This document shows, in pieces, positions 35,739 through 37,161 of a stretch of 64,000 nt of DNA. Each line of letters opens with the position of its first letter. The first letter of the stretch is position 1. Origin of the DNA: Elusimicrobiota bacterium (GTDB lineage: Bacteria; Elusimicrobiota; Elusimicrobia; 2-02-FULL-39-32); the NCBI GenBank assembly GCA_016180425.1, contig JACPBF010000010.1:1-64000 (forward strand), written 5' to 3'. Position numbers and translations under genes: made by a program. Under the pieces are notes generated by a model. It was not told the DNA's origin. It saw only the letters and a program-made list of their open reading frames with translations, and ran no database searches.

Positions 35739-35813
35739 ATGAAACAATTTTATTTAGAGTTGTCTCTAAAGATGGATAAAGATCTAGCGCTGCAGAGAGC
35801 ATTTTTTAAATGA
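35739..35813 (+). CDS. Possible 24-residue leader peptide
   Basis: ATG at 35739 begins 24 codons that end with a TGA overlapping the next start (ATGA at 35810). The peptide has mixed charge and no motif. The exact overlap suggests coupled translation into the GATase-like gene, but the ORF is short enough to occur by chance. Confidence 0.2.
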   Translation: MKQFYLELSLKMDKDLALQRAFFK

Positions 35814-36544
35814 AAATTTTATACGCTGGAGATAGTCCTTTAGGCGGAGCAGCCAATTATCTGCTTGGAATTCTAAATTTTTTAAGAGCAGATGTTTTGC
35901 ATCTAGCTCCAGCAGAAATTTTGTCCAGCCAACACCTTAAAAAACAGTTTGACGTCATTATTTTTAGTGATTATGCGCGAGACTCAGCGCCAGACTCTTC
36001 ACAAAAAATAGTTATTGAGCAGGCGCAAAATGGCGCTGGTTTTTTAATGATTGGTGGCTGGGGCTCCTTTACAGGATTAAACGGCTCTTGGCGCAATTCT
36101 TTAATCGAGGAACTTTTGCCTGTGCGCTGCTTAAAAAAAGATGATAGAAGAAATTTTCCCAGCGGCGCTTTAATGGCGCAAAATCAAAAACACACAATGT
36201 TTCAATCAGTCAATTTTAAGAACGCTCCAATCCTGTGCGGGTTAAATGAGGTCAGTTTAAAAAAGAACAGCATGGTTTTGCTGAACGCCAAACCCATCCA
36301 TTTTTCTAACAGCGGCTTGGTCCTTAAGGGAGAATACCCGTTGCTTGTTGTGGATTCTAATTCGCAAGATAGATGCGCAGCTTTCACATGCGATATCGCG
36401 CCTCACTGGTGCGGGGGAATGGTGGATTGGGGAAGCAAAAGAATGAAACTTTCTGTGAATGGTAAAATTAAAATTGAAGTGGGCGATCAATATGTGCGGT
36501 TTTTTACCGCGCTGATCCATTGGTTGGCAAGGAAAACAAATTAA
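35810..36544 (+). CDS. Glutamine amidotransferase-like (GATase1-like, ThuA-related) protein
   Basis: A 244-residue cytoplasmic protein with a class I glutamine amidotransferase-like fold: KILYAGDSPLGGAANY at the start, FDVIIFSDYARD, and GAGFLMIGGWGSFTG, where true amidotransferases carry the nucleophile Cys elbow. No Cys occupies that elbow, so glutaminase activity is unlikely. The second half has FTCDIAPHWCGGMVDWG. Family members often sit in carbohydrate gene clusters, but a substrate cannot be named. Confidence 0.7.
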   Translation: MKILYAGDSPLGGAANYLLGILNFLRADVLHLAPAEILSSQHLKKQFDVIIFSDYARDSAPDSSQKIVIEQAQNGAGFLMIGGWGSFTGLNGSWRNSLIEELLPVRCLKKDDRRNFPSGALMAQNQKHTMFQSVNFKNAPILCGLNEVSLKKNSMVLLNAKPIHFSNSGLVLKGEYPLLVVDSNSQDRCAAFTCDIAPHWCGGMVDWGSKRMKLSVNGKIKIEVGDQYVRFFTALIHWLARKTN

Positions 36545-36569
36545 GAGAAACTAAAAAATCGTCCTTAGG

Positions 36570-36696
36570 GTAACCGTTTAGCGTGGAGAAGTACACCGTC
36601 CATGATCGTCATTCCCGCGAAAGCGGGAATCCAGAATTGTAACGTTGACTAGATTCCAGCTTTCGCGGGAATGACGATTTGGCGCTAAACGGTTAC
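36570..36696. mobile_element. 127-bp MITE with 14-bp terminal inverted repeats and 8-bp target duplication
   Basis: GTAACCGTTTAGCG (36570-36583) and its exact complement CGCTAAACGGTTAC (36683-36696) bound the element. The 8-mer TCCTTAGG occurs directly outside each end (36562-36569 and 36697-36704), as a target-site duplication. Inside are long palindromic arms (36605-36624 with 36659-36678, 20 bp perfect, continuing after one mismatch) containing the hairpin CCCGCGAAAGCGGG, a repeat commonly seen between genes in many bacteria. There is no transposase, so it must have been moved in trans. It lies between the GATase-like gene and queF. Confidence 0.9.
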
Positions 36697-36750
36697 TCCT
36701 TAGGAGCACTAATACTCAAGAGATCGTTGGATTTGGATAGGAGCTAAAAT

Positions 36751-37161
36751 ATGACAAAAGATGAAAAAAATAAACTTTCAAAAAAGGGATTGGATGTTTC
36801 TTTACCGGAGATGGAATCTTTCCCCACACAATTTAAAAATTACAAGATTACCATATGCGTTCCAGAATATACTTCTATCTGTCCAAAAACAGGTTTGCCG
36901 GATTTTGGCGTCATTACTCTTACCTATATTCCCAATCAATCTTGCGTAGAGCTAAAATCTTTTAAATATTATGTTCATGCTTATAGGAATATTGGCATTT
37001 TTTATGAGAACGCAGTGAACCGAATTTTGAAAGATTTCATTTCAGTCTGCAAACCAAAATGGGCATATATTAAAGGAGAATTTACTCCGCGGGGTGGAAT
37101 AAAAACCACAATAGAAGCTGAATATGGCAAGATAAAAAGAGATTCTGCAAAGAATTTATGA
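36751..37161 (+). CDS. queF: NADPH-dependent preQ0 reductase
   Basis: QueF reduces the nitrile of preQ0 to the amine preQ1. The 136-residue protein is the short (unimodular) form. The active-site Cys44 lies in YTSICPKTGLPDFG with Asp51, and the substrate motif is ELKSFKYYVHAYRNIGIFYE. FTPRGGI follows. It links queC to tgt/queA. Its stop codon overlaps the start of a Crp/Fnr-type regulator by 4 nt. Confidence 0.95.
   Translation: MTKDEKNKLSKKGLDVSLPEMESFPTQFKNYKITICVPEYTSICPKTGLPDFGVITLTYIPNQSCVELKSFKYYVHAYRNIGIFYENAVNRILKDFISVCKPKWAYIKGEFTPRGGIKTTIEAEYGKIKRDSAKNL

Follow-up and report, generated by a model that had tools for sequence, protein, structure and literature searches.

The 64-kb window, by which we mean the whole stretch of 64,000 nucleotides analysed here from an uncultured Elusimicrobiota bacterium, contains a 127-bp element inserted between a GATase1-like gene and queF, with 8 bp of target sequence duplicated on either side. 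The explanation that fits it best, and that we regard as very probable, is an IS66-type MITE that is moved in trans, has a dimer of CGTC-tagged REP sequences as its core and belongs to a set of elements in which such cores are shared. To judge by related copies, small transposons of more than one kind carry this repeat. The features of the element and its insertion site, in window coordinates, are:

36562..36569, no strand: left copy of the target site duplication, 8 bp, TCCTTAGG (the empty site in the related genome G001 is a single TGCTTAGG)
36570..36696, no strand: whole MITE, 127 bp, no gene
36570..36583, + strand: left terminal inverted repeat GTAACCGTTTAGCG, an end of probable IS66 type
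36607..36633, + strand: CGTC-REP unit 1, with CGTC tag, 8-bp stem ATTCCCGC/GCGGGAAT, GAAA loop and CCA tail (definition from PMC3733652)
36650..36676, - strand: CGTC-REP unit 2, which has one mismatch in its stem and lies head-to-head with unit 1
36683..36696, - strand: right terminal inverted repeat, the reverse complement of the left
36697..36704, no strand: right copy of the target site duplication, 8 bp, TCCTTAGG

The element bears the marks of a MITE: perfect 14-bp terminal inverted repeats, a perfect 8-bp target site duplication, a length within 70-300 bp, no internal ORF of 80 aa or more, and several copies with the same ends (11 distinct, in three genomes). A preliminary description of this DNA had placed an intact MITE with an exact 8-bp target duplication between two genes at 36562-36704, and its positions, its perfect 14-bp repeats (GTAACCGTTTAGCG) and its direct 8-mers (TCCTTAGG) are all exact on both sides. 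The long internal palindrome that it reported is equally real, consisting of a 30-nt inner inverted repeat (36605-36634/36649-36678, 93% complementary) that contains the CCCGCGAAAGCGGG hairpin and is formed by the two REP units together. The whole strand can be folded as one long hairpin, with a single-stranded DNA folding energy of -47.3 kcal/mol compared to -15.3 +/- 2.7 for shuffled sequences (z = -11.7). Both sites of the 14-mer GTAACCGTTTAGCG in the window are the MITE ends, where 0.15 sites would be expected at up to 2 mismatches; two further matches to GTCATTCCCGC (1665, 30547) are not palindromic and were set aside. The stop codon of the GATase1-like gene (35810-36544, + strand) lies 25 nt upstream of the MITE and queF (36751-37161, + strand) starts 54 nt downstream of it. 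A consensus search of the insertion found no promoter or terminator, and an Rfam search of the element matched no family.

Genome G001, from the same genus, provides a reciprocal empty site (n=1). Both flanking genes are present there, the flanks are colinear with near-identical DNA on either side, and the part missing from its alignment with the window is exactly the element plus one 8-mer. What remains is a single 8-mer, TGCTTAGG, one base different from TCCTTAGG and without an insert; the chance duplication of the 8-mer in element-free relatives that would have spoken against an insertion is thus absent from G001, and the empty site that the preliminary description hoped for in relatives exists. 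Its word 'recent' can be kept only relative to the split between these two species of one genus, whose queF products share 92% amino-acid identity. This empty site, together with the 11 distinct copies that have the same ends and an 8-bp duplication, establishes the element as an insertion. The opposing reading, in which a chance palindrome happens to lie within a chance 8-bp repeat, or in which the sister species has lost the element, could appeal to the clean empty site being from one genome only and to its one-base difference, but it is contradicted by that same empty site and by the 11-copy family, with their perfect ends and 8-bp duplications at many unrelated sites whose target letters are specific to each copy. 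Precise loss of the element together with one duplication would moreover be rare, and we consider this reading extremely improbable.

The exact 12-mer end GTAACCGTTTAG has 8 occurrences in the element's own genome (G000), 8 in G001, 6 in G005 and a single one in G004; it is absent from the 37 others of the 41 related genomes searched, and a reversed control pattern matched 0-3 times per genome. In the fetched loci, both ends together with an 8-bp duplication were seen in 11 distinct elements of 78-200 bp (7 duplications exact, 4 at 7/8), distributed over three genomes of the same family as 2 in the own genome, 5 in G001 and 4 in G005. The seven exact duplications are TCCTTAGG, TCTCAATC, GGAAAATG, GATTTTTT, TCAATTAG, TAATTTTT and CATGATCC, and the duplicated octamers have no common motif. 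By chance ~0.07 such elements would be expected, given that a match of at least 7/8 arises at random in roughly 4 of 10,000 cases and that there were no more than 170 end-like pairs, a figure in which overlapping loci are counted more than once. A further, eroded copy (G005:C150:5691) retains a 7-bp match, GTTAATA. These copy counts come from pattern searches of relatives whose assemblies are mostly fragmented and in several cases incomplete, a state in which repeats collapse. The preliminary description would have been refuted if no other copy had these ends; such copies do exist. When the end was combined with the REP core as one pattern, the only matches in all GTDB contigs fell in JACPSV01, 'Elusimicrobia bacterium isolate NC_groundwater_715', which are G005's own contigs, and viral contigs gave no match.

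In the literature, IS66 insertion sequences have repeats of 20-30 bp that start with GTAAGCG, together with direct repeats of 8 bp (PMC11946415); several of the MITE copies read GTAAGCG at their end. We fetched loci around PF03050 transposases of the same class and searched them, with no end letters preset, for every inverted repeat of at least 10/16, 1.3-3.6 kb apart, that is flanked by an 8-bp direct repeat. Clear results came from three loci, in all of which the 8-bp duplication is perfect: L278 (ends GTAACCGTCAAATAAGGC, duplication AAAACACT, 15/16), L280 (ends GTAAACATTCGGTAAACC, duplication GTGAATTA, 16/16) and L279 (ends GTAATCGTTCTG/GTAAGCGTTCGC, that is GTAATCGTTCTGTG/GTAAGCGTTCGCTC, duplication GATTTCCG, 11/16). 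The intact IS66 elements of the class have GTAA-ends, one of them being GTAACCGT, and the first 8 letters of the L278 end are common to the MITE end. A fourth IS66 locus (L056) yielded one weak pair that is not GTAA, and when 151 other loci were searched in the same way, 3 weak hits at 11/16 came back, one of them L056, and no hit began with GTAA. The MITE thus resembles IS66 insertion sequences in its ends, which begin GTAA(C/G)CG, and in its 8-bp target duplication, but it differs from them in being 127 bp long, in having no tnpA/B/C and an interior that is not IS66 sequence, and in belonging to a host family where no IS66 transposase was found. Because the IS66 elements of the class combine GTAA-ends with 8-bp duplications, we infer by analogy that the 127-bp element is an IS66-type MITE moved in trans; we name it IS66-type, and not an IS66 member, because a DDE_Tnp_IS66 transposase was not found in G000-G008. 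IS66 goes unmentioned in a recent review of MITEs in prokaryotes (PMC10969869).

In the mechanism we propose, an IS66-type DDE transposase would recognise the GTAASCGTTTAGC ends and move the element in trans, supplied by an element that may now be lost, decayed or unassembled in these genomes. Weighing against this are the absence of PF03050 from all nine genomes of the host family (G000-G008) and of any full-length element with the same ends from 235 genomes of the class searched by DNA pattern, many of which are incomplete, fragmented assemblies; the full-length transposase with the same 14-bp ends that the preliminary description proposed to look for was accordingly not found. Its term 'trans-mobilised' is retained in the sense that we infer it from an element without a gene, since no transposase with the same ends came to light. 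The viral contigs gave two matches to the IS66-end pattern, with the same DNA around both; they were taken as chance because in one of the two contigs the match sits within a long gene resembling that of a phage terminase. The viral contigs as a whole yielded nothing related to the IS66 transposase.

As a coding trace next to an end of this kind there is only a broken DruA-like (DUF4338) gene in the own genome, ~290 bp inside a GTAAGCGTTTAGCC end (G000:C18:106670; L052 6671-7700). This decayed gene is possibly a remnant of the autonomous partner, and we treat it as a lead to that lost partner, short of proof. It is also what gives some substance to the view that the transposase came from another DDE family with 8-bp duplications, for example a DruA-associated element, and not from IS66, a view that the lack of IS66 transposases in the host family likewise favours, as does a plasmid gene annotated as an ISAs1 family transposase, which rests on DruA homology too. 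Such a source is nevertheless unlikely in our judgement, given that IS66 elements of the same class have GTAA(C/G)CGT ends with an 8-bp duplication and that in G029 a DruA gene adjoins an IS66 transposase gene. Plasmids with a DruA homologue were uninformative as a source on ends. Elsewhere in the own genome, two ends (GTAACCGTTTAGYCGARGGATGTRAATTTTTT...) enclose a 392-aa AAA_14-DUF4143 ATPase (G000:C41:1502-3608, L047), a 2.1-kb segment that was rejected as an autonomous element for want of a target duplication and a transposase. At L048 (from 5492; G000:C13:95491) a single end of the MITE type lies next to two ORFs of 269 and 285 aa, by eye a putative AbiE-type pair, and to a further gene that resembles the DUF4143 ATPase.

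CGTC-tagged palindromes are widespread intergenic repeats of bacteria. In the part of the survey by Di Nocera et al. (2013) that defines them, CGTC-REPs have a CGTC tag, an 8-9-bp stem starting AT, a 4-5-nt loop and a CCA tail, and occur mostly as head-to-head dimers (PMC3733652). The core of the MITE fits CGTC-1, the group of Neisseria dRS3 and Rickettsia RPE-6 as described there, in its tag, its 8-bp AT-starting stem, its 4-nt loop, its CCA tail and its head-to-head arrangement (PMC3733652). Unlike CGTC-1, the dimer here is enclosed by transposon ends with target duplications, and Elusimicrobiota falls outside the five phyla that the survey lists (PMC3733652). The CGTC-REP core was matched in 21 of the 41 related genomes, with 70 exact REP units in G005, while the ends are restricted to one family; the dimer that these ends carry is therefore older and more widespread, and the earlier suggestion that a common repeat may form the core of a mobile element is supported. 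The dimer would be a passenger that gives the element a palindromic centre other than IS66 sequence.

Comparison of the flanks of 33 dimers in G005 reveals that several sets of ends surround the same core. True left/right pairs are more complementary than re-paired ones (mean 10.7 and 8.3, respectively; 0 of 200 permutations reached the true score). GTAACCGTTTAGC stands on both sides of 4 of the 33 dimers, all four with 7-8 bp duplications, GRGACTGTTGCGAAA on both sides of 6, and GTTTGTTGAAAAA on both sides of 1, while 6 have two different ends, 6 one recognised end and 10 none. The flanks of the GRGACTGTTGCGAAA type match over 5 bp (mean 3.8/5 true versus 1.5/5 swapped) and not over 4, 6 or 8 bp, and three of the six copies have exact 5-bp duplications (TATAA, AAATG, CCATT); the boundary of this type, with the element starting at GRG, was set after a first scan for target duplications, with swapped pairs as the control. 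In G005 a second MITE family, set apart by its ends and its 5-bp duplications, thus has this same dimer as its core, and the different duplication length implies another transposase. Loci of this second family include L171, L242, L243 and L177 (G005:C248, C205, C211, C215). One genome accordingly holds both 8-bp IS66-type and 5-bp type ends around the dimer. None of the six mixed-ended dimers (L178, L182, L183, L239, L244, L246) has a duplication of 5 bp or more, as expected if they were born by recombination within shared cores, and they look like recombination products; the second-family and mixed-end results each comprise six copies from one genome of 80% completeness. Recombination between shared cores would yield mixed-ended copies without duplications, and CGTC-REP dimers would spread mainly as cargo cores of MITEs. 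The 10 of 33 G005 dimers without recognisable ends tell against this account, and other spread or end loss may apply to them; so does G032, where complementarity is no higher in true flank pairs than in swapped ones, and for which the generalisation that all CGTC dimers have inverted arms was rejected.

A further alternative, in our estimate less likely than not, is that the dimer is mobile in its own right, as a REPIN served by a RAYT-type tyrosine transposase, and entered the middle of an older MITE. The element would then be a stack of two independent mobile layers, and the dimer would have palindromes as its target. Dimers do lie between the arms of several unrelated palindromes in the genomes here, the survey speaks of insertion within palindromes in H. 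neapolitanus (PMC3733652, in the portion on that species), and the ends of the MITE also occur around other cores: a 78-bp copy without the REP (G000:C5:90184) and a 183-bp copy whose other palindromic core is of CATTCTGAG type (GTCATTCTGAGGCGAAG...; G005:C217, L076 1330-1512). Yet among the copies with these ends none was seen to differ from a REP-containing copy solely by lacking the dimer, no RAYT gene (Y1_Tnp, PF01797) was found in the dimer-carrying own genome, G001 or G005, and CGTC-REPs have no known RAYT partner in the survey's treatment of them (PMC3733652).

A passenger dimer inside an IS66-type MITE has partial precedents. QMITE2 of Coxiella burnetii (PMC5896051) is likewise a MITE with terminal inverted repeats, 7-11-nt duplications and a REP inside, and its copies without ends look like plain REPs; its REP is however a GTAG-REP and its ends are one set, whereas the CGTC dimer here is common to at least two. 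In H. neapolitanus a CGTC dimer is enclosed by long inverted arms, with no target duplication or transposase family reported in the survey's account of it (PMC3733652). A REP inside a MITE and CGTC dimers within palindromes are thus already known; new are a CGTC dimer enclosed by IS66-type ends, with target duplications and an empty site, the presence of that dimer in two MITE families of different duplication length, and the mixed-ended copies. The authors of the survey that defines CGTC-REPs found no transposase for them, and its closing part turns to the question of what moves them (PMC3733652). Dimers in elements with duplications of two lengths and unrelated ends point to several carrier transposases and not to one dedicated enzyme. 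We tentatively suggest, at somewhat less than even confidence, that CGTC-REPs lack a transposase of their own because the dimer serves as a general-purpose core in MITEs of unrelated DDE transposases, with core recombination swapping ends to produce new MITEs as well as mixed or end-less 'plain REP' copies.

Two other arrangements of the dimer were observed. At L168 (G005:C205) it lies between 31-bp inverted arms, AGAATGAAGGGGACRCAATACTTAATTCCAC, with no visible duplication. At five loci of G032 (L187, L189, L192, L194, L257) CGTC-REP dimers are enclosed by the arms of a different palindromic repeat (TGTCATTGCGAGCGAAG...), which may be an instance of nested REPs.
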